From a virus: a DNA stretch of 21,634 bases. The translations under genes and the position numbers were made by a program. The stretch spans positions 1 to 21,634 of the IMG/VR virus record IMGVR_UViG_3300031857_001602; one strand, written 5' to 3'. Below the pieces are notes generated by a model that saw nothing but the letters and a program-made list of their open reading frames with translations, had not been told where the DNA came from and searched no databases. Shown in pieces: positions 4,434 through 21,634 of the stretch (positions are counted from its first letter, which is position 1; every line of letters starts with the position of its first letter).

Positions 4434-4670
4434 TTAGCACATGCCGCCTTTTTTGTAGCCCTTGGCCATCATGCCACCGCCCATTTTGCCGATGGGCTTG
4501 CCCATGGCCATGCGCTTGTGCTCATTGATGTTGCCTTTGTTGGCCATACCGCCTTTTTTCATCATCACGGGACCAGTAGTTTTACTGGGCGCGGACATCA
4601 TTTTGTTTTTTGGACCGCTCTCAACGGCTCCACCGCCACGAGTGGCGCAACCCATACCTTTTCCAGCCAT
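4434..4670 (-). CDS. Tiny Met/Gly/Lys-rich KKGG protein
   Basis: The chosen ATG at 4670 gives 78 residues and sits about 8 bases after AAGGAG. An in-frame TTG at 4676 is less well placed. The protein is extremely rich in Met, Gly and Lys and contains MMKKGGMANKG and a terminal MAKGYKKGGMC, with a single cysteine at the very end and another in GMGCATRGGG. There is no recognised fold, and it is probably disordered. Its neighbour upstream has the same KKGG motif, and the two look like diverged relatives. Such peptides recur in freshwater phage genomes as I recall, but no function is known. A DNA- or capsid-interior-binding role is possible from the basic charge. The tight spacing (two bases from the previous stop, zero to the next start) supports real translation. 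Confidence 0.65.
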   Translation of the reverse strand: MAGKGMGCATRGGGAVESGPKNKMMSAPSKTTGPVMMKKGGMANKGNINEHKRMAMGKPIGKMGGGMMAKGYKKGGMC

Positions 4671-4672
4671 GA

Positions 4673-4855
4673 TCAAGCTCCTTTTTTCATTGCACGGCCC
4701 TTGACGTCGGCCGTTTTACGAGAAACAGCACGACCCATCTTGTCCGATGCGGACTTCTTGGCCATACCACCTTTTTTCATCTTGCCAACGCCATCAGCGG
4801 CAAAAGATGGCACTGATTTGCCATCTTTTTTAACCATTTTCATTGCTGCTTTCAT
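4673..4855 (-). CDS. Tiny basic KKGG protein
   Basis: This is a 60-residue protein with ATG at 4855 and AGGA eight bases upstream. About one residue in four is Lys or Arg. The central KMKKGGMAKKS repeats the motif of the next gene, and the terminal RAMKKGA is related. The N-terminus MKAAMKMVKKDGK may form a short amphipathic helix. It has no aromatic core and is probably disordered or folds only on binding. It starts four bases after the stop of the XhlA-like gene. Function unknown; the charge suggests contact with nucleic acid, membrane or the capsid inner surface. Confidence 0.65.
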   Translation of the reverse strand: MKAAMKMVKKDGKSVPSFAADGVGKMKKGGMAKKSASDKMGRAVSRKTADVKGRAMKKGA

Positions 4856-5698: not shown

Positions 5699-6163
5699 TT
5701 ACGAGGCTTGAGTGAAGGTGATGCCAGCAGCAACCGCGCAGAAACCCTTGGCGAACCAGGAAGTACCATCACTGATCACGGTGACCGTGTCGCCTGCGAC
5801 CGCTTGAGCGTCCACAAAACTGATGGTGTCGTCCGCAGTGCCAGTATCGCCAGCAGCACCAGAGGCAGGGTATGCCTGGCCCTTGATGATGTTTGCGCTG
5901 GAGCCAGTCACCACGGTGTAGCTTGCGCCAGAAGGAGCAGTCTTCACAATGAAGGTGTAGGTCAAGCCTGCCACAGGAGCGGGGAGAGTGGTTGCGAATT
6001 CAGTTGCAGAATTCAAAAAGAAAACGGTGCCAGATTGTGCAGCAGTCAGTGTGGAGGCTGCCGTCAATTCAGTATAGGCGACAGTGCCAGTGACGCTGCC
6101 AATGACGTTGCCAATGAAGCCATTGGTGGACGTAACTGGACCGGAGAAGGTGGTAGATGCCAT
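5699..6163 (-). CDS. Beta-rich virion protein, possible head fibre or decoration
   Basis: This is a 154-residue protein with ATG at 6163 and AAGGAA about eight bases upstream. The N-terminus MASTTFSGPVTSTNGFIGNVIG, followed by GSVTGTV, resembles the N-terminal anchor of head-fibre and decoration proteins that carry FxGPVxSxxGF...G repeats. The rest (FFLNSATEFATTLPAPVAGLTYTFIVKTAP, later NIIKGQ and DTVTVISDGTSWFAKG) is a Thr/Ser/Ala-rich beta domain often found at the end of such proteins. It is the first gene after the capsid terminator and starts a second transcription block with its own leader. It is likely displayed on the capsid surface. A tail-associated role cannot be excluded. Confidence 0.7.
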   Translation of the reverse strand: MASTTFSGPVTSTNGFIGNVIGSVTGTVAYTELTAASTLTAAQSGTVFFLNSATEFATTLPAPVAGLTYTFIVKTAPSGASYTVVTGSSANIIKGQAYPASGAAGDTGTADDTISFVDAQAVAGDTVTVISDGTSWFAKGFCAVAAGITFTQAS

Positions 6164-9299: not shown

Positions 9300-9776
9300 T
9301 TACATGTGCAGAATGTCTTCAGGACTGTTTACGACAGCCAACACTTCATCGTCGTTTAACAGACGAATCTCACCACCGTCGATCGGAATGCGTGCACCTG
9401 CATAGCGACCAAAGATGATCCAGTCACCCTCCTTGCACCAAGGACCGCCAGGGAATTTACTCTGGTCGGCATAGGCAAGGTCGCCTACTTTCAAGACGTA
9501 GCCGCACGTAGTGCCAAGCTGTGTCTTGCGCTGCGTTTCTTCGGCCAGGACGATACCGCCCTTGGTCTTTTCCGCGCCGCGATAGGGCAGGATGGCAATG
9601 CGCCACCCGGTGGGTTTTGGGATAGTGTCGACAACTGCTTGGTCGAGCTTCTCGGGGTCAAACCCAAGCTCCGTGTAGGCGTCCTCTAGGGCAGGCGGCT
9701 TGTTGGCCGCTTCTTCTGCCCATTTACGCTCCAAGGCTGTCATGTTGATTTCAGGGATTACTGCTTCGGCTTCCAT
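9300..9776 (-). CDS. GroES-like co-chaperonin (Cpn10)
   Basis: The ATG at 9776 (158 residues) follows AAAGGAAG by about six bases and is preferred to an upstream in-frame start near 9809 that would overlap the previous gene. Residues about 57-158 align by eye with GroES: PTGWRIAILPYRG corresponds to the first strand. EKTKGGIVLAEET contains the mobile-loop tripeptide IVL (75-77) that contacts GroEL. CGYVLKVGD, KEGDWIIFGRYAGARIPI and a final DDEVLAVV complete the barrel. An N-terminal extension of about 55 residues, helical and acidic, is not part of bacterial GroES. Phage Cpn10 proteins such as T4 gp31 cap host GroEL so that it can fold the capsid protein; the site between portal and scaffold genes supports that job here. 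No GroEL gene is present. Confidence 0.9.
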   Translation of the reverse strand: MEAEAVIPEINMTALERKWAEEAANKPPALEDAYTELGFDPEKLDQAVVDTIPKPTGWRIAILPYRGAEKTKGGIVLAEETQRKTQLGTTCGYVLKVGDLAYADQSKFPGGPWCKEGDWIIFGRYAGARIPIDGGEIRLLNDDEVLAVVNSPEDILHM

Positions 9777-9786
9777 GGTCTTCCTT

Positions 9787-9990
9787 TCACTTGAGAAAAT
9801 CGTCGACATCGTCAGTTACTTTTTTGAGCAACTCTTTCACGGAGTCTTCGACCATTCTCAAACCCTCAAGGCGACCCATCATGAAGCGATAACGCTCCAT
9901 GTCTGTGATGGTTCCGTTCAAGACAATCTGTTTAGATTGATCCTGGAGTTTCCTGATTTCTTTCAGAACTGCTTCTGCAAATTCGAGCAT
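9787..9990 (-). CDS. Small helical phage protein of unknown function
   Basis: The ATG at 9990 gives 67 residues and has GGAAA six bases upstream. In-frame alternatives are ATG 10002 and GTG 10038, neither with a ribosome site. The product is wholly helical and amphipathic (EFAEAVLKEIRKLQDQSKQI, then MERYRFMMGRLEGLRMVEDSV, then an acidic DDVDDFL end), so a dimeric helical bundle is plausible. It is placed after the small basic gene and 10 bases before the co-chaperonin gene. I recall similar short proteins downstream of portal genes in freshwater phages, without a function. Confidence 0.65.
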   Translation of the reverse strand: MLEFAEAVLKEIRKLQDQSKQIVLNGTITDMERYRFMMGRLEGLRMVEDSVKELLKKVTDDVDDFLK

Positions 9991-10049: not shown

Positions 10050-10322
10050 TCAGTATATCTTAACTGGACGGTTACCGTCCTTCTTTTTTACAATCATTGA
10101 AGGCCCTTGAGTACCAGGGGGCGACTTGATCGCATCACCGCCCTTGGACATCTTCTTGGTTTTACCTGCCTTGCTGTATGCAACGGCGACGGCTTGCTTC
10201 ACGGCAGCAGCTTTGCTCTTTGGCTTGCTGGTGCCGATCATTCCGTCCTTCTTGTAGTCGCGAACGATCTCTCCAATGTTGGAGCTGATCGTCTTCTTGC
10301 TAGAACCCTTTTTAAGCGGCAT
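10050..10322 (-). CDS. Small basic protein overlapping portal 3' end (DUF6496-like)
   Basis: The ATG at 10322 gives 90 residues. It lies 11 bases inside the portal gene and is preceded by AGGAGG at good spacing, which decides the start over a longer Arg/Ser-rich frame that is only a shadow of the portal gene. The sequence MPLKKGSSKKTISSNIGEIVRDYK, then AAAVKQAVAVAYSKAGK, resembles DUF6496-type small basic proteins (pattern KKxSxNI...KQAVAIA...AGK) that often follow phage portal genes. KMSKGGDAIKSPPG contains the KGG motif shared with other proteins here. It ends with a basic tail KKKDGNRPVKIY. It is probably a nucleic-acid or virion-interior binding protein; function unknown. Confidence 0.72.
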   Translation of the reverse strand: MPLKKGSSKKTISSNIGEIVRDYKKDGMIGTSKPKSKAAAVKQAVAVAYSKAGKTKKMSKGGDAIKSPPGTQGPSMIVKKKDGNRPVKIY

Positions 10323-12648
10323 ATTGGCCTCCTGGTTGGTTTGCTTTTTCCTGCTGCAATTGCAGCTTTTGCTGGTTGATCTGGTTGGTTTGCTGCGCCT
10401 TCTGCTCGTCCAGCGCCAAGCGCTTCTGGTCGATGCCAATGCGGGCCTGGTCTGCCTGGGCGCGCTGCTGGATTTCGGTTTCCTTGAGCTTGATGAGTGG
10501 GTCGGGACCTTCGCCACCGGCCATCTCTTCTTGCATCGTGCGAACCTCCTGCATGTACATCGCAATCTTGATGGCGACCATGCCTTCCTTCTGGATGGCA
10601 GACACCAGGCGATCGGGATCGGTGCCGTAGGCCTTGAACAAGTCGGCTTCGACGTCCTCTTCGGCCTTCAAGCGCACGTGATCCAAGATGTGCTTTTGCA
10701 ATTCGGCTGCAGACATTGGGTTGGCTTGCAAAATAGGCGACAAGCCCATCATCAAGTGCGTTGCAATATGTGCATCGTGCTGTTGGCCAGCAAAGGCCTT
10801 GAGCTTCATGCCGTTCAACACGTCGCTGTTCTCGGACGCAGGGTCGCGAGGCGTGTTTGTGTTCTGCGGCAGCAGCACACCGTCGATGTCGCGGATATTG
10901 AGCGCTGCATACATGCGGTAGTAGGCCTCGTACATGTTGTGCATGTTCGGAGCGCTCTGTGCAAGCTGCAACTGCATCTGTGCGAGCTGGATACGCTGTG
11001 CAGAGCTGAAGATGTTGGGGTCAGCCACTGGCTGCACGCCCACCATGCTGTTGAAGTCCGATTTCTTGACCTTGCGGCTGGCTCCTGGGACGTCGTAGGG
11101 GTACTCGTCTTCCAGATATTCGCCAAAGCCCTCGAACAGCAAGCGGAACTCAAGCGTCTGCGCATAGTGCAGGCGTTTGTGGATGCTGGACATGACCATG
11201 GAGCCACGCTCGAGCAGTGCCAGGGTCGTTCCGACCTGTGCGTACTGGTTGCCGTCGCCAACTTGCATGTCGGCGGTGCTGGAGAGACGCTTGCCGGCGT
11301 CCACAAGGAAGCCCAGGAGCGCAAACAGCACCTGGCTGGGCTCTTTGTATGGCAAAGGCAGCAAAGAGGCTGAAAGCTCCGCTCCGCCCGCGTCAATGTC
11401 ACGCCATTCACCTGGTTGGATGGGGTCTGAGTCGTCCGCGATGCGCGCGCCCTTGGCTTTGAAGCCTGCAGGCAAGTTTGCAAGCGTGCCGGCGTCGATC
11501 AGCTGGCGCAATGCGCTTGTTGCTGACTTGCCAAGGCCACCAATGAGGTGAACAAAGCCCAAACCGTAGGCACCAGGGCCTTCGACGAGCACATAGTGCA
11601 CGTAGTAGTTGCGGCGGCTGCGTTTTTCGTCGTTCTCACGCCAGTTTCTGCGGATGCCAACGACTTTTAGGGTGTCTTCAACCAGGGTAACTACGTATGG
11701 CAGCTTCACACCGGTCAATTCGCCGTCTTCGTCCTTGTCTTCAAAGCCTGGAAGGTCCAAATCGACCAATTGCTCAAGCAAAAACACCTCGCCAATGTCG
11801 TCGGTGGGCTGAATGCCAGTGATTTTGTCGACTGCTTCCTGGATTTGGCTTGCATCAGCAGGAGATGCGTAGGTTTCTGGCATCACATCCAGGTATTCGC
11901 CAGCCAAAGCACGCTTTTTGTACTCGTTGGAGTCCATTGCAATGCGGTTTGTTAGGCGTGGGCACTGGGAAACGACGCTTGAGCCGTTGTACGGGATGTA
12001 AACATCGTCTGCCAAGCACAGTTTTGACACCATGCGGCCCAATTGGTAGTCGTAGTAGACCTTTTTGAAGGTCGAACCACCGTAGCCAGTGTAGAAAAGC
12101 TGCTGATCAAACTCCGGTGTGTACTCTTCCATCACCGTGGTGATCTGGTAGTTCATGAAGTCCTGCACACGGCCGGCTTGTTGGAACTTTTCCACCGTCT
12201 CTTTGCCCATGATCTGCGTGCGAACAGGGCCGCCAGCAGGCATCAGCTCCTTAAAGGCCTGTGCCTGGAACTGAATGATGGCCTCGGTCAGCATTGGATG
12301 GGTCGCGCCTGACGCGCCACGGAAGGGCTTGGTGCGCTCTTCCATGCGGAAGCCCAACAAGTCCAGGCCCTTGGCATACATCTGCTCCCAATCGGAGCGT
12401 GAGCCTTTGTCTGCCTCAAACATGGCCGACACATCCAGGCCAATCTTGGCCAAGACGTCTGGCTCAATGACCGCTGCCAGGTTGCTGTAGAAGTCGACTT
12501 CTTCGGCATCCTTCTCGCCCATCTCAACGGTTGCGCCACCATCAGCTTCGATGATGATTTCAATGTCAGACTGAGGCTCTGGGATGCCACCACCGCCCAC
12601 TATCACTTCAAGTGAGGGCAGCTGGTTCATTGCTTTTTCTATTGCCAT
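10312..12648 (-). CDS. Portal protein (P22-like, long form)
   Basis: This is a 778-residue protein with ATG at 12648 and AGGA upstream, 15 bases after the preceding stop. Length and features match long podoviral portals. There is an N-terminal acidic segment, then EADKGSRSDWEQMYAKGLDLLG and MEERTKPFRGASGATHPMLTEA with the downstream FQAQAFKELMP wing region. The core includes EYTPEFDQQLFYTGYGGSTFKKVYYD and DVYIPYNGSS. The later helical stem and barrel region has VDAGKRLSSTADMQVGDGNQ and YAQTLEFRLLF. The C-terminal 60 residues (KLKETEIQQRAQADQARIGID, then Gln-rich) form a coiled coil like the barrel of P22 portals. Twelve copies would form the packaging vertex and bind TerL. It is preceded by the 1703-residue gene rather than directly by terL. 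Confidence 0.93.
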   Translation of the reverse strand: MAIEKAMNQLPSLEVIVGGGGIPEPQSDIEIIIEADGGATVEMGEKDAEEVDFYSNLAAVIEPDVLAKIGLDVSAMFEADKGSRSDWEQMYAKGLDLLGFRMEERTKPFRGASGATHPMLTEAIIQFQAQAFKELMPAGGPVRTQIMGKETVEKFQQAGRVQDFMNYQITTVMEEYTPEFDQQLFYTGYGGSTFKKVYYDYQLGRMVSKLCLADDVYIPYNGSSVVSQCPRLTNRIAMDSNEYKKRALAGEYLDVMPETYASPADASQIQEAVDKITGIQPTDDIGEVFLLEQLVDLDLPGFEDKDEDGELTGVKLPYVVTLVEDTLKVVGIRRNWRENDEKRSRRNYYVHYVLVEGPGAYGLGFVHLIGGLGKSATSALRQLIDAGTLANLPAGFKAKGARIADDSDPIQPGEWRDIDAGGAELSASLLPLPYKEPSQVLFALLGFLVDAGKRLSSTADMQVGDGNQYAQVGTTLALLERGSMVMSSIHKRLHYAQTLEFRLLFEGFGEYLEDEYPYDVPGASRKVKKSDFNSMVGVQPVADPNIFSSAQRIQLAQMQLQLAQSAPNMHNMYEAYYRMYAALNIRDIDGVLLPQNTNTPRDPASENSDVLNGMKLKAFAGQQHDAHIATHLMMGLSPILQANPMSAAELQKHILDHVRLKAEEDVEADLFKAYGTDPDRLVSAIQKEGMVAIKIAMYMQEVRTMQEEMAGGEGPDPLIKLKETEIQQRAQADQARIGIDQKRLALDEQKAQQTNQINQQKLQLQQEKANQPGGQYAA

Positions 12649-12663: not shown

Positions 12664-15600
12664 TTAAGGCATTTTGAAACTGGCGTTTATGCCGTTTTTG
12701 TATTCTTGCAGCAGGGGAGTGAGATATTCGTCGCTCTCCTTGATTGCCGCAGGCCTGAGGTAATCCTGGAAGAACTGAAGCACGGCACCGTCGTATTTCT
12801 CAGGTGCGGTATTGCCCGTGGCGCGTCCGTTGCCTTTAATTTGCATCACGACAGGGGTCATTTCATCCAGCATCGTCACCTCAATTGTGTTGACAGGTCT
12901 ATTACGGTTGTCACGTAGAGTATATACCTGCCACTTGCCGGTGTTGAAGCCTTCGCGCTTTTCTTGCGTATAAGTTGCGCCACCGGTTTCGTAGCCGCCC
13001 ACCGAGTGGCCAACATACGCGCCTTCCGGCACGGTGGCTTCACGCTTCTCAATCCGCTTCCAAGCATAGCCCTCAAGCGGGCCTTTGTCGATCTGCACCA
13101 AAGGTGCGCTCACGCCCTTGGAGAAAACAGTATCAGCAACTGGCTTGCCGGATTTGATGCGGCTGACCACGTTTTCCAGCTCTGCCGCCTTTTCCTTCAT
13201 CTTCAAAGCACCCTTGACGGCGTCTTCAAAACGAATGTTGGCAGCCTCTCGGGGAGGAATGCTGGCCAGATACTTGTTGATGGAGGTTGGATTGAACAAC
13301 TCGGTCAATGGCGCGCGCATGAAGTCCACATCGTAGACGGGCTCGCCTTTGTCGATCGCTGTCTTGATGTTCTCAGGCAGCAAATTCTTGCCGACCTCTG
13401 CCTCGTTCTTGCCAAGGATGCGACGGCCTTCACCAAAAATCTGGTTGATCCAGCTTGTTTTCTGTGTGTCGTCCATCTTGCCAAACTGCTTTGACTCCTC
13501 ATAGGCATTGAGCAGTGCTTTGGCAGAGTCAGGACCGTCGCCGATGACCTTGCTCTTGTCCATTGAGGACCTGGCCACAGTGCCAACATCCGTGTTGATC
13601 AGCTCGGGGCGTACACCCTGGGCAAGCAGTTTGTCTTGCTCACGCTGTTCTGCCACCAGGCCTTGCAATCTGCCTTCGTCTGACAAGAGGTTGGAATACT
13701 TGGGGTTGGCCGCTTCCGGGTCCAAAGTAATCAAGCCGCCTTTGATACCTGTGGCCTTGTCATAGCGAGACGTGAAGTCCTCCATGGCCCGTGGGTACTT
13801 GGGGAAGAATCGCTCTTGGCCTTCTGCGTTCACGCGAGTTTTGCCCACACCAATCTGGTCAATGAGGTACTCAGGGAACATCTCGTCCAGGGCGGTGCCT
13901 TTGATTTGCTTCTTGGAGATGGCCGTTGCGATTGGATCGTCAGGCGTGCCAAACTGGCGTGTGAAGTAGTTGCGTGCCTTCTTGTCCCAGAAGTCATTGA
14001 GGATCATCGCCTGGCCTTCGTTCTGACCTGCGGCTGTCTTAGCATTCATCATGCCGCTCTTGAGCACCTGGTCGAGCTTGCTGACGTCTTCTTGCAGACC
14101 TATTGGCCCAGACATCATCGTGCTGCCTGTTGGGCGCACGGCGTACAAAGGTTTGGCCGACTGGGGCACAAACTTGGCCAAGGGCCCTGCTTCGTCCATG
14201 ATGGCGCGGTCCAGCTGACGACCAACTTCCTTGGCTCCAGCCTTGACGCCTTTCTCAACAACAGGGCCCACCTTGCGAGACACAGCTGCAGGATTGGTCA
14301 GGTTGGACAAAAGTTCGCCAGCTGTGTAGAAGCCCTTGGCAGTTGGATCAGCAGGGGGCTCTGGGCGCACACCCAACTTGGTCATCTTTTCCTTGATGAA
14401 GTCGCTGCCCATCACAGGTTTTTCTGTGCTGTAGCCAAACGGACGCATCAGCATCGTGGCCAAGTCCACAGGCGCGCCTGCGATGTCATAGGGCAACTCT
14501 GTCACGCCCTTGGCCATGTTCACATACGCTTCACCCGACTTCAGCTGCTTGCTGATCGGGCCTTCCTTGCGGTTCAGACCAGTGCTTGGGCGCGCCTTTG
14601 GGGCGTAGTACTTGTCCAAAGATTCTTCGCCTTCAACAGGGCTGCCGTCGGCGCGGTACTCGGGCGGAGGTGTCATGACCTGACCCTTGCGGTTGGCCAT
14701 CTGCTCTTTGCTCATGGTCCAAGGTTTGCCCGCAGTCTGCTTGTTCTGCGACTGTGCTGCCATGGAGGCGACGAGCTTTTCCAGCTCTGCCTGGCTCTTG
14801 GTCCGCGCTGCAAGCTCCGCGCCCAACTTGTTGTTGTGCACGTCCATCTCGTAGTCGTCACGTGGCTTGCCGATGCCAAACATGCTGAAGAAGGACTCAG
14901 GGTTGCTTGTGCGCTCATGCACTTTGCCCAGGAACTCTGCTGCGCCTGGCCCGAACTTCTTTGCCATCGTCGCTGCTGCCAACATGTGGCGAGCCGCGTC
15001 GCGTTGATCGTCTTGGCCCATCTGTCCAGGGAACATCCGCTCGGCGGCGTCCGTGGAATAGCTTGTCACGCGCAAGATGCTGGGCTCTTCAACCTCTTGC
15101 GCGCTTGTCTTTTTTGCTTCACCACCTTTTTCAAAGCGCTTGGCTGTCAAGCGGCCTTTGGTCAAAGTAGGCTGCTCCAGTGTCGGTGCACCCAAGGTGT
15201 TGCGCATCAAACCACGAGACTTGTCCGTGGCCTGCTGTGCGCGCAGCTTGTAGGCCAGTGCCAGTGCTTCCATCTGTGAGCGAGCTGATCCGTCGTCCTT
15301 GAGCTGTGGCACAAGGTCCTTGGCAGATGTCAAGGCTTCGTACTCCATGCTCATGCCCTTGGCTGTGCCGCCAGCGCCGCCTGAAGTTTTCTTGCTCACA
15401 CGCTTGATGCTCTTGGCGTTGGGCGACTCGGTGATCTCGGTCACGCTCTTTGTCGGGCCTGTGAGGTCCGCCAACATCTTCTGCGCCGAGCCAGCTGGAT
15501 CGGTGTTGATTGGCTCGTCTTCGGCGTCAGCCATGTTGAACTCGTTCACGTCGGCCAAGCCGCCTTTGGCAAAGCCTGGTGGCCCAAACAAAGGTCCCAT

Positions 15601-17775
15601 GCCGGGCGCGTAGATGCGGTTACCCAAGCGGTCGGTCATGATGCCGGCGTTTTGCGCACCGCCCAGCATCGTGGGTGACAGGTTCTTGTTCTGGCCGATG
15701 GCATTCATCGTGTTCATCGCGCCGTACATGGGCATGTCGGGGGACCCGATGGCCATGGTCCCTGGGCTGATGCCCTGCTGTCCAGGTTGGCTGATGCCAA
15801 AGTAGTTGTTTGGGTTTGTGGCCGCATTGCCGCCGCGCATGGGCGACGAGCCAAAGACCATGGGCGCTGCTGGCCCAGTGATGTTGATGCCGCCGATGTC
15901 ACCCACTTGGCCAACCTGGCCCACACCTTGGTTTTGGTACAGGGTAGGCTGCGTTACAGGGACCTGGCTTGCATTGATGTCTGTGCGCTCACCGTTTTGG
16001 CCAAAGACAGAACCTGTAGGCATCTTGCCCTGGCGCTCTTCGTCACGCGTCTTGTCCAAGTAGCGTGACCAGCCCACGTCCAAAGGTCCGCCCAGGTCAA
16101 TCTGGCCAATGGTTCCTGCGGAGCCTATGGTGGACAGGTTGGAGGGGATTGTGTATGCGTTGGTCTTGCTGGCAGTCAGGCCGTTGAAAGGGTTGACCGT
16201 AATCTGCGACTTGGGCAGGGGCACATAGCCGCCGCCAGGTGTCACGCCGTCCCAGCTGCCTGCGTCAGGGTTGTTGTACCCCGCGCCGCCAGGGCTGAAG
16301 AACGCCTTGTTGCGTTTGGTGTATTCGCTCTCAGGCATCTTCATGGATTTCTCATACGAGTCAATCCACTTGGGCGTCGCGTTAAAGCCTGCAGCGCCAG
16401 CGGCCTTGGCCACTGCTTCGTAGCCGCCGTATTTTTGCAGCTCTGATGTGGGCACGCCGCCCATGGTGCTGCGGTACATCAAGTCCAGTGCCGTGCCAGC
16501 AGTCAGGCCGCCAGTCGTGGCATTGGAGCCAGTGATCGCATTGGACATCGGCAGTGCTGCCTTGGCCCGTGCGTCGGCGTCCGCCTTCAACGCGTTTTGC
16601 ACAGCCAGCTGTTGTGCGGCTGTGGCCTCTTCCTGTTGCTTCTTCAAAGCAGCTGCTTGCTGCTCTTTCAGTGTCGAGAGCTGCAAAGCGTTTTGTGAGG
16701 TCAACGCTTCACGTGCTTTGTTCGCATCGTCCAATTGCTTTTGCAAATCAGCTGCGCTTAGAGCTGTTGATGCTGGCGCTGCGGCCGGCTCTGCAACCGC
16801 TGCCACTGCTGCGGGGGCCGCGCTGCGTGGGTTGAACACACGCTTGATGGCTCCAACAATCTTGCCAATCACGCCGCCCTTGAACTCATGCAAACCTGTT
16901 GCAGGGTTGATGGAGCCCGAGCCGCCCATCTTCTTCAAGATTTCAACAGAGGCTGGTGACAGATAGGCCAACAGCTCATCGCCGCCACGGCCGGCTGCGG
17001 CCACACGGTCCACTGCTTCCATGATCTGTGCATGCGTGAGCTTGCCCTTGGAGCTGATCTCCTGGGCCATCTTCAGGATTGCTGCGTCGTCTGGCTCATA
17101 GCCCCCGTCCATCTCGCCCAGCATTTCCTTGGCAGACTTCTCTTTGGATTTGACTTCACCGCCCTTGGCCATGAAGCGGTTGCTCACGGACATCGAGCCG
17201 AAGTTAAAGCGGTCTGGATCACTGACCACGTCAATCGCCACAGAGCGGTTGCCGGCGTCGTCACGCGCACGCTCGGCCGCTTGCTGCTGATACGCCTGCA
17301 CGTCCTCAACCTTGAACGGCACTTCAGGCGCTTTCATCGTGAACGCGTCCGGGTCCTTGGGCGCTGTCATGTCAAAGGTACTGCCCAGTGTCGGCGCTTC
17401 AGGGCCCGCATAGTCCGTGGTGCGGTCGCCAGCGTTCCAGTCGCTGATTGCTTTTTCGTAGGCCTCGTACTTTGTTTTGTACGGGTTGTAGATTTCGTCG
17501 TTGTACTTTTGAGCTGCTGCGTTGTACGCGTCAGTCTGCGCCTTGTACGGGTTGTAGACCTCGTTTTGGTACTTGGTCAGCGCATCGTTGTACGAGAGGC
17601 GCTGTGCCTCGAATGCGTCCAGTTCTTTTTGACGAGCGCCCAGGTACTCTTTGTCCGAGCCACGGAGCATGGCCCGCTGCACAGGGTTGGCAATACCGCC
17701 AAAAGCAAAGTTTTGTACGGGTGTTGAGAAGGCGTCAATGTCCTGCTCATCTGGTGGTAGATTTTGATTTTCCAT
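12664..17775 (-). CDS. 1703-residue multidomain phage protein of unknown function
   Basis: ATG 17775 has GGGG six bases upstream. The layout is mosaic. Residues 55-115 hold two copies of KYxNE(I/V)YNPYK. An NPATGLHEFKGG motif near 290-301 precedes KIVGAIKRVF. A Gln/Ala coiled coil spans about 330-400, and a Gly/Asn/Pro-rich disordered half follows. KGG motifs lie at 203-206, 298-301, 735-739 and 881-885. At residues 905-990 a conserved-looking domain has RH (929-930), HE (953-954) and MDVHNN (977-982), a pattern I associate with DUF6973. The C-terminus (1615-1650) has WQVYTLRDNRNRP, NTIEV and QIKGNG, like the motif in PcfJ-type and large polyvalent phage proteins. No helicase, polymerase or transglycosylase motif is seen. 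Its place between terL and portal suggests an internal virion (ejected) or packaging-associated protein. It has no signal peptide or clear membrane segment. The reading frame is unbroken; function unknown. Confidence 0.85.
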   Translation of the reverse strand: MENQNLPPDEQDIDAFSTPVQNFAFGGIANPVQRAMLRGSDKEYLGARQKELDAFEAQRLSYNDALTKYQNEVYNPYKAQTDAYNAAAQKYNDEIYNPYKTKYEAYEKAISDWNAGDRTTDYAGPEAPTLGSTFDMTAPKDPDAFTMKAPEVPFKVEDVQAYQQQAAERARDDAGNRSVAIDVVSDPDRFNFGSMSVSNRFMAKGGEVKSKEKSAKEMLGEMDGGYEPDDAAILKMAQEISSKGKLTHAQIMEAVDRVAAAGRGGDELLAYLSPASVEILKKMGGSGSINPATGLHEFKGGVIGKIVGAIKRVFNPRSAAPAAVAAVAEPAAAPASTALSAADLQKQLDDANKAREALTSQNALQLSTLKEQQAAALKKQQEEATAAQQLAVQNALKADADARAKAALPMSNAITGSNATTGGLTAGTALDLMYRSTMGGVPTSELQKYGGYEAVAKAAGAAGFNATPKWIDSYEKSMKMPESEYTKRNKAFFSPGGAGYNNPDAGSWDGVTPGGGYVPLPKSQITVNPFNGLTASKTNAYTIPSNLSTIGSAGTIGQIDLGGPLDVGWSRYLDKTRDEERQGKMPTGSVFGQNGERTDINASQVPVTQPTLYQNQGVGQVGQVGDIGGINITGPAAPMVFGSSPMRGGNAATNPNNYFGISQPGQQGISPGTMAIGSPDMPMYGAMNTMNAIGQNKNLSPTMLGGAQNAGIMTDRLGNRIYAPGMGPLFGPPGFAKGGLADVNEFNMADAEDEPINTDPAGSAQKMLADLTGPTKSVTEITESPNAKSIKRVSKKTSGGAGGTAKGMSMEYEALTSAKDLVPQLKDDGSARSQMEALALAYKLRAQQATDKSRGLMRNTLGAPTLEQPTLTKGRLTAKRFEKGGEAKKTSAQEVEEPSILRVTSYSTDAAERMFPGQMGQDDQRDAARHMLAAATMAKKFGPGAAEFLGKVHERTSNPESFFSMFGIGKPRDDYEMDVHNNKLGAELAARTKSQAELEKLVASMAAQSQNKQTAGKPWTMSKEQMANRKGQVMTPPPEYRADGSPVEGEESLDKYYAPKARPSTGLNRKEGPISKQLKSGEAYVNMAKGVTELPYDIAGAPVDLATMLMRPFGYSTEKPVMGSDFIKEKMTKLGVRPEPPADPTAKGFYTAGELLSNLTNPAAVSRKVGPVVEKGVKAGAKEVGRQLDRAIMDEAGPLAKFVPQSAKPLYAVRPTGSTMMSGPIGLQEDVSKLDQVLKSGMMNAKTAAGQNEGQAMILNDFWDKKARNYFTRQFGTPDDPIATAISKKQIKGTALDEMFPEYLIDQIGVGKTRVNAEGQERFFPKYPRAMEDFTSRYDKATGIKGGLITLDPEAANPKYSNLLSDEGRLQGLVAEQREQDKLLAQGVRPELINTDVGTVARSSMDKSKVIGDGPDSAKALLNAYEESKQFGKMDDTQKTSWINQIFGEGRRILGKNEAEVGKNLLPENIKTAIDKGEPVYDVDFMRAPLTELFNPTSINKYLASIPPREAANIRFEDAVKGALKMKEKAAELENVVSRIKSGKPVADTVFSKGVSAPLVQIDKGPLEGYAWKRIEKREATVPEGAYVGHSVGGYETGGATYTQEKREGFNTGKWQVYTLRDNRNRPVNTIEVTMLDEMTPVVMQIKGNGRATGNTAPEKYDGAVLQFFQDYLRPAAIKESDEYLTPLLQEYKNGINASFKMP

Positions 17776-17814: not shown

Positions 17815-19272
17815 TCAATAGTACTCCGGCACAAGCTCTGCTTTTTCACCTTCATCATTGTCATCTGTTGCCAGGCTGATGAAGTTGCCGCGCCTGAAGC
17901 GATCCATGGCCATTGTCGTGCTGTCGACCATGTCGTCGTTGTCCCCGTTTGGAAACGCCGCGCATTCCTCCACCAACAATTCCGCCCATTCCGTATCCGG
18001 GGCCCAGACCATGCCGGCCTCGAAGATCGGAGCCACTGCGTTGGCCCGCGCCACTTTGTCCGTGCCCGTCCTGCGACCGCCCGGTGAGTACATCGTCACA
18101 GGAATGCTCATCCTGCGCAGCTCCTGCTGCAAAGGTGTACCCGTGGCCTTGGCCTCAATCAAGACGTTGTCTGGCTGCCAGTGGTCGTACTGCTCCTTCG
18201 CAATCCGTTTTAGCTCTGGGAAGTCCCAACGGCCACGTTTGACATCGAGCAAGATGATTGATGCCCCCGAGTCTTCGTTCAGGTAGAACACGCCCCAGGT
18301 CGTGATGACAGAAAAGTCAGCCGTCTCCTTCTTGGAATACGCCGTGTCCATGGACTGGATGATGTAGTTCACCACCGGCGGCTCGTCATGCGGCCACACC
18401 TTCCACCACTCCCGTTTCAGGATCGCACCCTCGTCGTTCGTGGGCTGCTGCTGGTACATCGCGTTCCACTTTTGCACAGACAAAGTGGCCCTCACGCCTT
18501 CCAGTTCCTCGATCTTCCAGAAACCTGGCCATAGGGGTTTACCACTAGGCAGGATGGCTGGGAACTCAATCACCTCCCACTGGTCCGCGTTGCGTGATTT
18601 CTGCGCCTTGAGTAAGCGTGCCGTCAGGTCCTTCGTCCCCCAGCGCGTCATCACAATCACAATCGCACCGCCTGGCTGCAAACGCGTACGAGGGCCAGAG
18701 ATGTACCACTCCCAGGCATTGTCCAAAGCAAGCTCACTCATCGCGTCCTGCTCCGAGTGCGGGTCGTCAATGATCAAAACGTCCGCACCACGACCGGTCA
18801 TCGCGCCGCCCACACCAACAGCAAAGTATTCCCCGCCCTTGTTCGTGTCCCAGCGGCCAGCGGCCTTTGAGTCCTGCTTCAAAGTCACATCCGGGAAGAC
18901 CTCCTTGTAGGTGTCCATGTCCATCAGGTCACGCACCTTTCGGCCAAAGCGCACGGCAAGCTCGCTGTTGTGCGTTGCTTCAATGGCCTTGGTGCGCGGA
19001 TCGCGGCCCATGAGGTAGGCAGGAAGCAGATAGCTTGCGAATTCAGACTTCGTGTGCCGTGGGGGCATGTTGATGATCAAACGCTTCAAGGACCCAGCGG
19101 CAATTCGGTCGAATGCGTTGGCCATCTTCTCGTGGTGTGCACCAAGGATCGCGTTTGGCCAGACGTACTTGACGAAGCCGAGGAATGTTGAACGGGCATT
19201 GTCTTGCGTTTCAAGCTGCGCGAGCCGGTACTCGAGCTTGAGTCGTTCCGCGTCGATTTCTTCAGGGATCAT
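17815..19272 (-). CDS. terL: Terminase large subunit (ATPase and nuclease)
   Basis: This is a 485-residue protein with ATG at 19272 and a weak GGAA site. The N-terminal ATPase carries a deviant Walker A, MPPRHTKSE (69-77), a Walker B plus catalytic acid, VLIIDD (165-170), and the coupling motif MTRW (208-211). The C-terminal RNase-H-like nuclease shows the three acidic sites: D309 in SMDTAYS, E373 in LIEAK and the DNDD-MVD cluster at 444-450. Length and motif order are typical of the large terminase that docks on the portal, cuts concatemers and pumps DNA. It is the first gene of the late operon. No small terminase (TerS) can be recognised in this window. The packaging strategy (cos or pac) cannot be told from the sequence alone. 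Confidence 0.97.
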   Translation of the reverse strand: MIPEEIDAERLKLEYRLAQLETQDNARSTFLGFVKYVWPNAILGAHHEKMANAFDRIAAGSLKRLIINMPPRHTKSEFASYLLPAYLMGRDPRTKAIEATHNSELAVRFGRKVRDLMDMDTYKEVFPDVTLKQDSKAAGRWDTNKGGEYFAVGVGGAMTGRGADVLIIDDPHSEQDAMSELALDNAWEWYISGPRTRLQPGGAIVIVMTRWGTKDLTARLLKAQKSRNADQWEVIEFPAILPSGKPLWPGFWKIEELEGVRATLSVQKWNAMYQQQPTNDEGAILKREWWKVWPHDEPPVVNYIIQSMDTAYSKKETADFSVITTWGVFYLNEDSGASIILLDVKRGRWDFPELKRIAKEQYDHWQPDNVLIEAKATGTPLQQELRRMSIPVTMYSPGGRRTGTDKVARANAVAPIFEAGMVWAPDTEWAELLVEECAAFPNGDNDDMVDSTTMAMDRFRRGNFISLATDDNDEGEKAELVPEYY

Positions 19273-19282
19273 GGGATTCCGT

Positions 19283-19330
19283 TTCGTTTTAAATTTTTAA
19301 ATATTTTGACACGAGTTGACTTTGTTGACA
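19283..19330. promoter_or_regulatory. A+T-rich tract with three phased TTGAC repeats
   Basis: An A/T run (about 19287-19307) lies 15 bases upstream of the terL start and stands out against very G+C-rich flanks. It is followed by TTGACA (19306-19311), TTGACT (19316-19321) and TTGACA (19325-19330), spaced 10 and 9 bases, about one helical turn. This spacing is that of binding sites on one DNA face (iteron-like or operator-like). On the minus strand no good -35/-10 pair could be fitted, so a late promoter here is possible but unproven. Confidence 0.5.
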
Positions 19331-19361
19331 AAGGGGGCCCTTTATTGCTGGGCCCAAAAAG

Positions 19362-19377
19362 TGTTTCACGTGAAACC
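19362..19377. promoter_or_regulatory. parS-like ParB binding site
   Basis: TGTTTCACGTGAAACC matches the chromosomal parS consensus TGTTNCACGTGAAACA at 15 of 16 positions. It contains the perfect 14-base palindrome GTTTCACGTGAAAC. It lies in the gene-free region 90 bases upstream of the terL start, beside phased repeats and GGGCCC palindromes. Host ParB (Spo0J) recognises this sequence across most bacterial phyla. No parA or parB gene is in the window. Alternative: a phage repressor operator that happens to share the palindrome. Confidence 0.8.
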
Positions 19378-19414
19378 TACCGTGTAAAACAGGGCCAAGG
19401 CCTCAGCCTGCGGG

Positions 19415-19441
19415 ACCCGGGGCCGTTTTTTGGGGCCCGGG
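19415..19441. other. GC-rich hairpin with a T6 loop
   Basis: CCCGGG (19416-19421) pairs with CCCGGG (19436-19441). After a small internal mismatch, CC (19423-19424) pairs with GG (19432-19433). The loop is GTTTTTT. There is no T-run after the stem on either strand, so it is not a standard terminator. It sits at the border between the parS region and the CCAGG-rich field. Confidence 0.5.
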
Positions 19442-19935
19442 GGTAGTGGGTACTCACTTACGCGCCAGGGCTCATGCCGCCGTCGACCGGCCACCAGGTC
19501 CAGGGGCCACGGACCAGGGATCGCGGACCAGGGCGCGCGGGCCTAACCTGGGCGACCAGGCACCAGGCAGCGCAGCAGCTGCGCACCAGGCGACGCGGTC
19601 CTGGGTGTTTGTAACCCGGGATCACAAACACGGGCGACCAGGCGACACAAACACAAACACGGCCACCGGCACCAGCTGCGCGGACCAGGCAGCGCGCACC
19701 AGGGCGCGCGGATCGCGGCCACCAGGCAGCGCTCGGCAGCCACCGGCACCAGGTCCAGGCAGCGCGGACCACGGCCCAGGCGACCAGGACCGGCAGCAGC
19801 TGCGCACGATACGCGGACCACGCGCCAGGGGTTGATCGGCCGGGGCCGCTGGCCAGGCTCAGGCAGCCACCAGGTGGCCCAGGTTAGCAGCCACAAACAC
19901 CGGGCCCCATGGGCGGCCGGTGCGATACCAGGCGC
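19441..19935. repeat. Low-complexity field of CCAGG-centred short repeats, no credible gene
   Basis: This stretch of about 495 bases has no believable gene. Open frames exist on both strands only because of the very high G+C content (one 60-base line, 19681-19740, is 80% G+C by hand count); their products are Trp/Arg/Pro/Gly-rich or simple-sequence-like. By eye about 20 CCAGG but only about 2 CCTGG occur on the plus strand. Longer units recur: ACCAGGCAGCGC (19563, 19684, 19721), GCCACCGGCACCAG (two), ACCAGGGCGCGCGG (two), CAGCTGCGC (three). They are dispersed rather than strictly tandem. Function unknown; a cis-acting protein or packaging region or decayed coding sequence are the options. Confidence 0.6.
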
Positions 19936-19961
19936 AAAAAAACCCGGCACGCGGCCGGGTT
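19936..19961 (-). terminator. Intrinsic terminator of the right-end gene cluster
   Basis: On the minus strand an 8-base stem, AACCCGGC with GCCGGGTT, closes a 5-base loop (19949-19953). It is followed by a run of seven T residues (19936-19942 on the plus strand as A). It lies 25 bases after the stop of the 74-residue gene and ends leftward transcription from 21.1 kb before the gene-free region. Confidence 0.92.
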
Positions 19962-19985
19962 TGTGTATTACGAAAACGGCGCAGC

Positions 19986-20210
19986 TCAGGCAGGCAGGCC
20001 AGCAGCTGCGGCCAGCTCGGCCAGCATGTGGTCGGCCGTGCCCAGGGCGTCGGCCTTGTCGTCGGTGAAATACTCGGCGACCAGGCGGCCACCGGGGCCG
20101 GTGGCGCGCACCTGGTACTCGGACCAGGTGGCGGACCAGGCGACGCGGACCAGGCCAGCGTCGGCCAGGTGCACCAGCTGCACCAGGCGCAGGCGGTCGC
20201 GCGCGCTCAT
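19986..20210 (-). CDS. Small hypothetical protein, translationally coupled
   Basis: ATG 20210 gives 74 residues and overlaps the upstream stop as ATGA; an in-frame GTG at 20219 is possible but less likely. The sequence reads as a compact domain: helix RDRLRLVQLVHLADAGL, strands VRVAWSATWSEYQVRATG, then RLVAEYFTDDKADALGTADHML. The last part pairs an acidic loop (FTDDKADALGTADHM) with a terminal helix of Ala and Leu. This TDD-KADA-xxTAxxM pattern recalls small phage and plasmid proteins with a strand-helix fold, but I cannot name the family. It is the last gene before a terminator, with coding-like codon use. Function unknown; an early regulatory or anti-host role is only a guess from location. 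Confidence 0.65.
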   Translation of the reverse strand: MSARDRLRLVQLVHLADAGLVRVAWSATWSEYQVRATGPGGRLVAEYFTDDKADALGTADHMLAELAAAAGLPA

Positions 20211-20764
20211 GCTGCGCACCTAGCGGCCAGGGCGGACCGGATCACGGCCAGCTCGCGCTCGGACATGTTCGCCAGGGCGGCGGCCAGGCGGTCGACCACC
20301 GGATCGACCGGGGCGGGCTCGGGTTCGTCCAGGCACCAGGCGGCCGCGTCATAACCTGGCAGCGCTCGGCCGCTCGGGTCGGGGGTGTATTTGTATTTTT
20401 TGGGCGCGGCCTGGTAGGCGGCCAGGTGCGCAGCTGCGACCGCAGCGCGGCGGATCGTCACCAGGTAGCCGAACGCGTCGGAATCATTCCAGGTCGACCA
20501 GTCGCTGGCCTGATAGTCGAGACAATCGCAGGCTTTCACAATGGCCACCGGTGCCAGGTCGACACCGGCCGAGCGGTCCAGGCCACCGAACGGGGCCAGC
20601 TCGGAATCGTACCGGCCCGCGTAGCGCTCGGAATACGCGCGGCGGTTTGCACTGGCCAGCATGTGGGCGACCGCGTCAGGCGACGCGTCCAGGTCGACAC
20701 CATGGCGGACCGCCCAGGCCACCAGGGCCGAGATATGAAAATCAGGGACAACAAAGCAGCTCAT
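20207..20764 (-). CDS. Hypothetical phage/plasmid-type protein with CDCLDYQ motif
   Basis: ATG 20764 gives 185 residues, starting two bases after the upstream TAA. A longer in-frame extension to 21076 is rejected because it overlaps the upstream gene and is Arg/Gly/Pro-rich noise. Visible features: MSCFVVPDFHISALVAWAVRHGV at the start, ASANRRAYSERY near 38-49, VAIVKACDCLDYQASDW (73-89) and LPGYDAAAW (135-143), followed by a Glu/Pro linker and a C-terminal helix ERELAVIRSAL. I recall the combination MSCFxV...KxCDCxDYQ...LPGYDxAxW from uncharacterised accessory proteins on phages and plasmids of Proteobacteria. The two cysteines of CDC and the aromatic residues look conserved. The biochemical role is unknown. 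Confidence 0.72.
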   Translation of the reverse strand: MSCFVVPDFHISALVAWAVRHGVDLDASPDAVAHMLASANRRAYSERYAGRYDSELAPFGGLDRSAGVDLAPVAIVKACDCLDYQASDWSTWNDSDAFGYLVTIRRAAVAAAHLAAYQAAPKKYKYTPDPSGRALPGYDAAAWCLDEPEPAPVDPVVDRLAAALANMSERELAVIRSALAARCAA

Positions 20765-20766
20765 GA

Positions 20767-21138
20767 TTAAACCCCCACGCGAGCGTCGGCGAGCGCGGCC
20801 TGCAGGGCCAGCTCGGCCAGGTCGGCCAGGTCGGAATAAGTAACGGCAGCTGCCACCAGGTCGGCGAGCGGGCGCTGGGCGACGGCGACACCGGCCAGCA
20901 GCTGCTCGGCCATGCCAGGGCGCGGGCAGTCCTGGGCGAAGCGCTCCCAGGTCACGCCGTCGGCCACGCGGTGGAATACATCCGACGCACCGGCCACCAT
21001 AACGGGCCACGCCTCGCACATGATCGCCACGCCGTCGGCCACCAGCATCAGGTCGCCATGGCGGACCGCCTCGCATTGTGACCAGTCATAAGCGCTGGCC
21101 ATGTCCAGGTCGCGCAGGTCAAAAATTTTCGTTTGCAT
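20767..21138 (-). CDS. Hypothetical acidic helical protein
   Basis: This 123-residue protein with ATG 21138 is the first gene of a three-gene unit. AAGAAAGCGAGAAAGAC upstream gives only a weak ribosome site. The N-terminus MQTKIFDLRDLDMASAYDWSQCEA precedes a strand-like DLMLVADGVAIMCEAWPVMVAG and TWERFAQDCPRPGMAEQLLAGV. The C-terminal half is almost wholly Ala/Leu/Asp helices (LADLVAAAVTYSDLADLAELAL). It has three cysteines and no membrane segment. I do not recognise a family. It is co-transcribed with the next two genes (spacing two bases, then a four-base overlap), so the three products may act together. Confidence 0.65.
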   Translation of the reverse strand: MQTKIFDLRDLDMASAYDWSQCEAVRHGDLMLVADGVAIMCEAWPVMVAGASDVFHRVADGVTWERFAQDCPRPGMAEQLLAGVAVAQRPLADLVAAAVTYSDLADLAELALQAALADARVGV

Positions 21139-21163
21139 GTCTTTCTCGCTTTCTTAAGTTTCC

Positions 21164-21180
21164 CCCGGCCCCATGCCGGG
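21164..21180. other. Short hairpin in the leader of the three-gene unit
   Basis: CCCGGC (21164-21169) and GCCGGG (21175-21180) are perfect arms with a 5-base loop. They lie between the candidate promoter and the start at 21138. There is no T-run on the coding strand, so termination is unlikely; a message-stabilising or translation-tuning hairpin is possible. Confidence 0.4.
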
Positions 21181-21196
21181 AGATTAAATTTTACAC

Positions 21197-21225
21197 TAAA
21201 AAATAAACTGTGCGCAACATGTCAA
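21197..21225 (-). promoter_or_regulatory. Candidate sigma70 promoter for the three-gene unit
   Basis: On the minus strand a perfect TTGACA (21225-21220) is followed by a 17-base spacer and TTTTTA (21202-21197), a weak -10. A nearby TAAAAT (21193-21188) is better but wrongly spaced. The region is A+T-rich and lies just after the terminator of the upstream gene, where a new promoter is expected. Confidence 0.45.
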
Positions 21226-21236
21226 CAAACACAAAC

Positions 21237-21261
21237 AAAAAGCCCGCCACCAGGGCGGGCT
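21237..21261 (-). terminator. Intrinsic terminator after the rightmost gene
   Basis: On the minus strand AGCCCGCC and GGCGGGCT form an 8-base stem with a 5-base loop (21249-21253), followed by TTTTTGTTTG. It begins 21 bases after the stop of the 116-residue gene and separates that gene from the next unit. Confidence 0.88.
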
Positions 21262-21281
21262 CGGTGGCCGGGTCGGCCGGA

Positions 21282-21632
21282 TCAGGCAGCCACGGCGTGG
21301 CCAGGTGCGGGCTTTGCCTGGGCGACCTGGCGGGCCTGCATGCGGTAGCCCTGGCCGAGCGCGTCGACCACATGCCACCCACGGCGCGGACCGGCCGGGC
21401 GCTGCAGCTGGTACACCCGGCCACCATAAGACACCCAGGCACCGGCCACCGGCGCGGGCTTTGCCTGGCGGGCGGCGTGATATGCCCGGACCCGCTCGCG
21501 CCACTGCGCGGCGAACCCGTCGCGCTCGGCATGCGGCGCGGCCAGGTAAGCCAGGGGGCAGTCGATCGCGCAGGGCCCGGCCGATTCGTCCAGGTCCTTA
21601 TACCCCCAGCCGTCGGCGCGGCCGGATTGCAT
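21282..21632 (-). CDS. Hypothetical phage/plasmid protein with GWGYKDLDES motif
   Basis: The frame starts with ATG at 21632, two bases from the window edge, so the ribosome site is outside and a longer N-terminus cannot be excluded. The product has 116 residues. Residues 8-20 are GWGYKDLDESAGP, followed by C21 and CPL at 25-27. Then comes a helix with QWRERVRAYHAARQA and a small beta domain (GAWVSYGGRVYQL, then GWHVVDALGQGYRM). The motif W-G-Y-K-D-(L/M)-D-E-S-x-G-P plus CP recurs, as I recall, in uncharacterised accessory proteins of phages and plasmids. Two Cys could bind a metal or pair. It has its own terminator, so it belongs to a separate transcript from the next three genes. Function unknown. 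Confidence 0.68.
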   Translation of the reverse strand: MQSGRADGWGYKDLDESAGPCAIDCPLAYLAAPHAERDGFAAQWRERVRAYHAARQAKPAPVAGAWVSYGGRVYQLQRPAGPRRGWHVVDALGQGYRMQARQVAQAKPAPGHAVAA

Positions 21633-21634
21633 CA

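Follow-up and report, generated by a model that had tools for sequence, protein, structure and literature searches.

A very large modular protein encoded between terL and portal in a widespread freshwater phage group differs in one module even between sister phages

Introduction

Why should a phage place a gene of more than 5 kb between terL and portal, and what could the product of such a gene do? The question is raised by an IMG/VR virus record of 21,634 bases (hereafter the window, meaning the whole stretch of DNA that was analysed), which belongs to a widespread freshwater phage group. Large multidomain proteins are known from the late regions of phages and from conjugative elements as polyvalent proteins, for which injection is predicted, and their modules include ART-PolyVal, LPD23, zincin, GNAT, and RelA/SpoT domains (Iyer et al., 2017, PMC5512222). 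Temperate phages encode MuF polymorphic toxins with an N-terminal MuF domain, the muf gene lying directly downstream of portal (Jamet et al., 2017, PMC5576092). Here, we describe the gene in the terL-portal slot of the window, its relatives in other phages, and the reading of its function that we favor, namely that of a toolkit-like protein delivered into the host.

The Slot Gene and Its Flanks

The gene and its neighbors are as follows.
17815..19272, minus strand: terL, conserved upstream flank of the slot (phrog_38, E 4.5e-111)
12664..17775, minus strand: slot gene, encoding a 1703-aa modular protein between terL and portal (ORF, with orthologues in L002 and L005)
10312..12648, minus strand: portal, conserved downstream flank of the slot (phrog_1216, E 8e-37)

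The 5.1-kb ORF that a first-pass annotation of this DNA had reported between terL and portal is present on the minus strand, between flanks that match phrog_38 and phrog_1216. The gene order, read from Pfam and PHROGs matches, is terL, slot gene, portal, GroES, scaffold-like protein, MCP, and SU10-type adaptor, which is podovirus-like; the slot gene thus has its place in the late or virion gene region of a terminase-portal phage, and transcription runs in the order terL-slot-portal. Two independent contigs carry the same gene, one (L002) with a product of 1967 residues that is 97% identical to that of the window, the other (L005) with 72% identity to residues 634-1703, and the ORF is therefore no assembly artefact. 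The dN/dS ratio between the window and L002 lies at 0.01-0.24, depending on the segment, and is low in the DUF6973 cassette and the C-terminus. Judged from these comparisons, the slot ORF is real and under purifying selection. Searches with tblastn using the whole protein and two parts of it found no homologues among annotated phages, NCBIfam gave no matches, and a sequence search of solved structures returned nothing useful and no solved relative.

A Hypervariable Slot at a Fixed Place

A portal search of IMG/VR yielded at least 600 relatives, of which 80 were fetched. Every fetched relative with both terL and portal has one or two ORFs in between, which in complete form total ~260 to ~2000 residues. 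The expectation that terL and portal are usually adjacent holds for the distant cyanophages MinM2 and Pag-Yong1, but in the phage group of the window a gap between the two genes is the rule. The two-gene plan with an occupied slot is also found in DSL-LC04, where the slot holds an 825-residue 'PcfJ-like protein', in pelagiphage HTVC027P (gp41 and gp42), in 023Pt_psg01, and in HTVC023P.

The flanks are well conserved, terL being fully covered at 71-93% identity in most relatives, and portal identity ranging from 67 to 90%. The slot covers a median of 15% of the window protein in tblastn across 26 loci; for terL, portal, GroES, the scaffold-like protein, and MCP of the same loci, coverage is 88-100%. 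In L011, with flanking genes that mostly have 85-96% identity to those of the window, the slot is 5% covered. By this measure of sequence coverage the terL-portal slot is hypervariable, and in the literature searched we found no description of such a slot between terminase and portal.

Slots of farther relatives encode, among others, a zeta toxin (L072, L074, and L079) or ART-like domains with matches below the Pfam cut-off (L045, L059, and L079), and in L079 both occur in one polypeptide, again with the ART match below the cut-off. This last protein (L079:1-3396) combines the ART-like domain and the zeta toxin with a domain like gp82 of mycobacteriophage L5.

Such variety could mean that the slot is a hot spot at which unrelated cargo genes with no function in common are inserted. 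Many slot proteins show no BLAST similarity to that of the window, and in L026, L028, and L029 the slot consists of two ORFs, both of which would suit this explanation. We nevertheless regard it as highly improbable, since the slot proteins share a linker motif much more often than chance would give, many of them have the same anchors before and after the cassette, and 25 of them share a C-terminal domain. In L026, L028, and L029 the C-terminal part of the slot protein is encoded by an ORF of its own, which speaks for an autonomous unit.

In a set of 72 slot proteins, many of which lack BLAST similarity to each other, the linker motif F.[KE]GG was counted 58 times, vs. 1.9 occurrences expected from shuffled sequences. 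The motif was also considered as a mark of virion proteins in general: in DSL-LC04 the late genes hold eight occurrences vs. none, but with p 0.065, and the bias toward late genes has no effect left once glycine pairs are corrected for, so that this role is conjectural. Two small basic proteins of the window (4434-4855 and 10050-10565) carry KKGG or SKGG motifs that resemble the slot linker.

The Exchange Site and Its Cassettes

Within the slot protein, the variable part is framed by constant sequence.
15097..15291, minus strand: residues 829-893, constant anchor upstream of the exchange site, containing RFEKGGEAKK (profile matches in 30 of 78 slot proteins)
14641..14670, minus strand: residues 1036-1045, junction of the extra residues of L002 (comparison with L002)
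14122..14658, minus strand: residues 1040-1218, constant anchor downstream of the exchange site (profile matches in 23 of 78 slot proteins)

The upstream anchor ends around RFxxGGEAKK, and the exchange site follows directly after this conserved linker. Cassettes sit between the two anchors or, after the first anchor, take up the whole remainder of the protein. DUF6973 cassettes, which fall into three sequence classes, are present in the window and in L002, L003, L006, L010, L017, L022, L023, L024, L028, L030, L035, and L037. Other occupants are a zincin cassette with the motif HEMAHAxDRQFEE (L007 and L012; weak M91 match, E 0.025), an LPD23 cassette with a HELQH motif (L016; E 3.4e-10, above the Pfam cut-off), an ART-PolyVal-like cassette (L036; ART matches below the Pfam cut-off), and a cassette with a conserved DTYDF motif, the YDF domain (L011, L021, L026, L027, L029, and L034). 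The conserved motif of this last cassette reads LGxFxY...VVxDTYDF in full, and neither L011 nor L034 gave a Pfam match for it. The exchange site is empty in L009, L020, and L032. Compared to the window, L002 has ~264 extra residues just after DUF6973, including an ART-PolyVal-like domain (E 3.2e-5, below the Pfam cut-off). The slot protein of the window has no zincin that could cut it into units.

Mapped onto a tree of portal from 26 phages, cassette type changes 13 times, and shuffled labels give a mean of 13.1 changes; the cassette thus tracks phage descent no better than chance. Sister pairs with differing cassettes are L037/L036, L029/L030, L023/L021, and L022/L009. The slot protein is modular, with an effector cassette between constant linkers that differs among related phages regardless of their descent, and the earlier description of a mosaic with effector-type domains agrees with DUF6973 and a GNAT-modeled C-terminus in the window and with ART-like, zeta-toxin, and zincin modules in the slots of relatives. 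Comparison of sister phages that differ mainly in the cassette would allow the host functions that these phages attack or counter to be read off at the exchange site.

The DUF6973 Cassette

The cassette of the window is of the DUF6973 type.
14740..15087, minus strand: residues 897-1012, DUF6973 (PF22322) cassette (Pfam E 1.2e-11, 44.7 bits vs. a cut-off of 27)

A domain with RH, HE, and MDxHNN motifs had been noticed here from the sequence, and it can now be given a family: the motifs lie at residues 929-930 (RH), 953-954 (HE), and 978-982 (DVHNN), and the DUF6973 profile scores above the Pfam cut-off. An alignment of 15 cassettes shows invariant D-A-x-R-H, E, D, N, and G. The AlphaFold2 model is all-helical with a pLDDT of 72. 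Compared with solved structures by Foldseek and VIA, this model had no match better than those usual for helical arrangements, the best being serum amyloid A at Z 6.4; we therefore claim no fold for DUF6973, and the fold match that had been envisaged for this first candidate domain of the protein did not appear.

The DUF6973 family occurs in 7 of 398 sampled genomes of one phylum and in 28 of 395 of another. In L127, DUF6973 (E 3e-17) follows an Rhs/YD core, for which the TEN_YD-shell match is weak (E 0.0097), though the usual end of the Rhs core and DPTGL are visible in the sequence, and in L102 and L107 a DPxGL boundary directly precedes DUF6973. Going by this domain order, DUF6973 is shown to be used elsewhere as the C-terminal tip of Rhs polymorphic toxins, which links the family to the toxin tips of bacterial proteins. 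Further members appear, as read from their sequences, to be secreted or lipoprotein-like. Together these proteins characterize DUF6973 as a domain of exported proteins, with the Rhs tip among its uses. Two proteins of Pseudomonadota (L101 and L103) seem to combine SH3- and LysM-like parts with a DUF6973 near the C-terminus. By analogy with the Rhs tips, DUF6973 in the slot protein may be a toxin.

The slot product might alternatively be a structural or morphogenetic protein, such as an inner core, a portal accessory, or a scaffold, with weakly constrained length and sequence, whose domains are remnants or structural. Its fixed place beside portal, its long low-complexity stretches, and the segments in common with ejection-block proteins would fit such a role. 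However, modules are swapped as whole recognizable enzyme or toxin families, even divergent DUF6973 members keep the same motif residues without exception, and dN/dS is low in both the cassette and the C-terminus, all of which makes a structural role quite unlikely.

The PcfJ-Like C-Terminal Region

Downstream of the second anchor, the protein ends in two conserved parts.
13120..14082, minus strand: residues 1232-1552, conserved alpha/beta region (20-member alignment; model pLDDT 88)
12667..13119, minus strand: residues 1553-1703, PcfJ-like C-terminal domain with a predicted GNAT fold, QIKGNG at 1645-1650 (alignment, profile comparison, and model)

Residues 1232-1703 were modeled with 20 relatives (pLDDT 88, pTM 0.73). 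The PcfJ-like motif that had been proposed for the C-terminus is only indirectly visible: the window protein has no direct Pfam match to PF14284 at E up to 0.1, but WJZ48068 of DSL-LC04 passes the PF14284 cut-off (36.5 vs. 25 bits), and profile-profile comparison of the window C-terminus with the WJZ48068 group indicates homology with a probability of 95.9 (E 5e-9). Viral model matches of the C-terminal domain are PcfJ-like proteins as well (E 2e-8 to 1e-3).

The fold search was more productive for this second candidate domain than for DUF6973. All 50 of the 50 VIA matches listed for residues 1553-1703 are GNAT-type folds, with Z values of 6.1-7.6 that stay below the safe level of 8, and the best Foldseek match is GNPNAT1 (E 0.01). 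The secondary structure of the model, assigned by DSSP, is b1-a1-a2-b2-b3-b4-a3-b5-a4, and a putative acetyl-CoA motif Q/RxxGxG/A, QIKGNG, stands just after the fourth strand, where it is expected in GNATs; its Q and first G are invariant in the family, and the second G is not found in all members. The Z values alone are not decisive, but the order of strands and helices in the model and the position of QIKGNG are those expected of GNATs. We infer that the C-terminal ~150 residues, which model as a GNAT acyltransferase with a QxxGxG motif, may be such an enzyme, and the model suggests that this PcfJ-like clade, at the least, has a GNAT fold. PcfJ-like domains would hereby gain a first testable biochemical prediction, the binding of acyl-CoA. 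A literature search found nothing that links a PcfJ protein to acetyltransferases, and the joint matches listed were almost all names of C. elegans plasmids.

The N-Terminal Half and the Question of Delivery

The first half of the protein contains the following features.
17653..17724, minus strand: residues 18-41, STPVQNFAFGGIANPVQ..., like the DSL-LC04 ejection-block protein WJZ48115 (BLASTP E 6e-4, same pair as the stronger match)
17446..17598, minus strand: residues 60-110, two YNPYK repeats (YNPYK at residues 74 and 96)
16882..16992, minus strand: residues 262-298, GGDELLAYLSP..GGSGSINPATGLHEF segment, common to ejection-block proteins (BLASTP E 3e-9 to WJZ48115)
15571..16764, minus strand: residues 338-735, heptad-like and Ala/Gln-rich, then low-complexity and probably disordered (read from the sequence)

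The YNPYK repeats of the first-pass annotation are found as two copies, and the other motifs that it named are in the sequence as well. Two separate places of WJZ48115 match the slot protein, one at residues 18-41 and the other at residues 262-298; WJZ48115 is annotated as a tail tape measure protein and adjoins a phrog_4287 DNA ejection protein in DSL-LC04. The segment at residues 262-298, in which NPATGLHEF stands at residue 290, recurs in the N-terminal part of gp46 of phage Venkman (residues 20-56), a DNA ejection protein of phrog_4287, and is found in MW202825 near the start of a similar ORF. Although the common segments are short (24 and 37 residues), the occurrence of the segment 262-298 in ejection-gene products of several phages indirectly supports packaging and ejection, in line with the injected internal virion protein that the first-pass annotation had considered, and the slot protein is on this ground predicted to be packaged and ejected with the DNA. 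Only 7 of 78 slot proteins carry the NPxTGL form of the leader segment, so that it cannot serve the whole set as packaging signal; the other slot proteins, if packaged, must use another signal, for which the GG-linker is a candidate.

It seems to us reasonably probable that the gene encodes a phage polyvalent protein in a fixed but hypervariable cargo slot, and that this protein is packaged at the portal vertex, leaves the virion together with the DNA, and acts on the host. Because it joins a toxin- or enzyme-like exchangeable mid-section to a front end with parts that resemble proteins ejected with DNA, it would probably be an injected multi-purpose weapon. The protein would be made late and would enter the procapsid close to the portal vertex; the N-terminal segments that it has in common with ejection-gene products would direct it there, and its long flexible stretches would help. 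After ejection with the DNA, DUF6973 would act in the host as a toxin-like, probably hydrolytic domain, and the GNAT-like domain would transfer an acyl group to a host protein or to a small molecule. By recombination in the constant linkers the phage could change this weapon as host targets or defenses change.

Alternatively, the protein could be a late cytoplasmic effector that stays unpackaged and acts in the producing cell, for example against superinfecting phages or in host remodeling before lysis. Effector-type domains and rapid exchange suit conflict between phages equally well, and the location of the slot in the late region suggests late expression and nothing beyond it (the main text of the HTVC027P paper does not state the transcription timing of gp41/gp42). 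However, the N-terminal segments match ejection-block proteins, and the gene lies beside portal like those of polyvalent and MuF proteins that are thought to be packaged (PMC5512222, PMC5576092), so that we hold an unpackaged effector to be unlikely.

A more far-reaching form of the injection reading is possible, if doubtful: the slot could be a dedicated, recombination-driven exchange system of injected effectors in an abundant aquatic phage lineage, with an ejection-type leader, the linker RFA[KED]GGE[VA] as packaging or cleavage tag, interchangeable toxin tips derived from bacterial polymorphic toxins, and a PcfJ-like C-terminus that represents an unrecognized family of GNAT acyltransferases. 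If the protein is injected, very common freshwater phages have in it a natural and rapidly changing means to deliver bacterial effector domains, and a simpler form of it exists in cultured pelagiphages such as HTVC027P.

Comparison With Known Systems

By architecture and context, the slot protein is of the polyvalent-protein kind (PMC5512222). Like these proteins, that of the window combines two disparate domains, DUF6973 and a C-terminus modeled with a GNAT fold, and its gene lies in the late region, between terL and portal. Among the catalogued polyvalent domains, slot relatives have LPD23 above the cut-off (L016), ART-PolyVal below the cut-off, and HExxH motifs, and the window protein has only the predicted GNAT-like fold. 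What sets the slot protein apart from these is its fixed place between terL and portal, an exchange site inside the protein with constant linkers on either side, and the DUF6973 and PcfJ-like domains, and the copy of the window is devoid of a zincin; the terms PcfJ and zeta toxin are absent from the text of PMC5512222. We found no earlier description of a slot fixed between terL and portal, of constant linkers framing an internal exchange site, of DUF6973 cassettes of the Rhs type, or of a PcfJ-related domain that resembles GNATs.

Like MuF toxins, the slot protein is encoded next to portal and carries variable domains of toxin type, but its gene is upstream of portal, and its exchange site is found inside the protein and not only at the end. 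As Pfam and PHROGs reveal no MuF domain in the window protein at E up to 0.1 and the gene is on the other side of portal, it is no MuF polymorphic toxin, though it would work like one. Rhs toxins with DUF6973 tips (L127, L102, and L107) likewise use DUF6973 as a variable effector part; the slot protein, however, is a phage protein with another means of delivery and without an Rhs core or DPxGL boundary, and Pfam found no Rhs/YD-repeat family in the window protein.

WJZ48068 of DSL-LC04 (OR003939, proposed Dishuiviridae, PMC10611076), the 'PcfJ-like protein', occupies the same slot and has a homologous C-terminal domain, but comprises 825 aa and is without DUF6973; the text of the DSL-LC04 paper makes no mention of PcfJ (PMC10611076). 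A0A6J5NDA6 of an uncultured Caudovirales phage is 63% identical over the C-terminal region (TM 0.95), and its name, 'DUF6973 domain-containing protein', is an automatic one only.

Other Features of the Window

The gene at 9300-9809 encodes a phage GroES co-chaperonin (Cpn10, E 4.9e-10), which is conserved in the group and in pelagiphages. A second variable gene at 5699-6163, for a 154-aa protein, lies just after MCP; it is unmatched in most relatives, its neighbors are conserved, and DSL-LC04 has a 'cement protein' at this position. At 1122-2024, a 300-aa protein of repeated VTGVSATGxVGxV-like units is encoded, with a 66-bp tandem repeat at 1594-1799. Upstream of terL, the GC content climbs to 0.70 (19300-21634). 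A chimeric origin of this right end was considered and ruled out, since homologous DNA is present upstream of terL in L022 and L010, and the GC-rich end is genuine.
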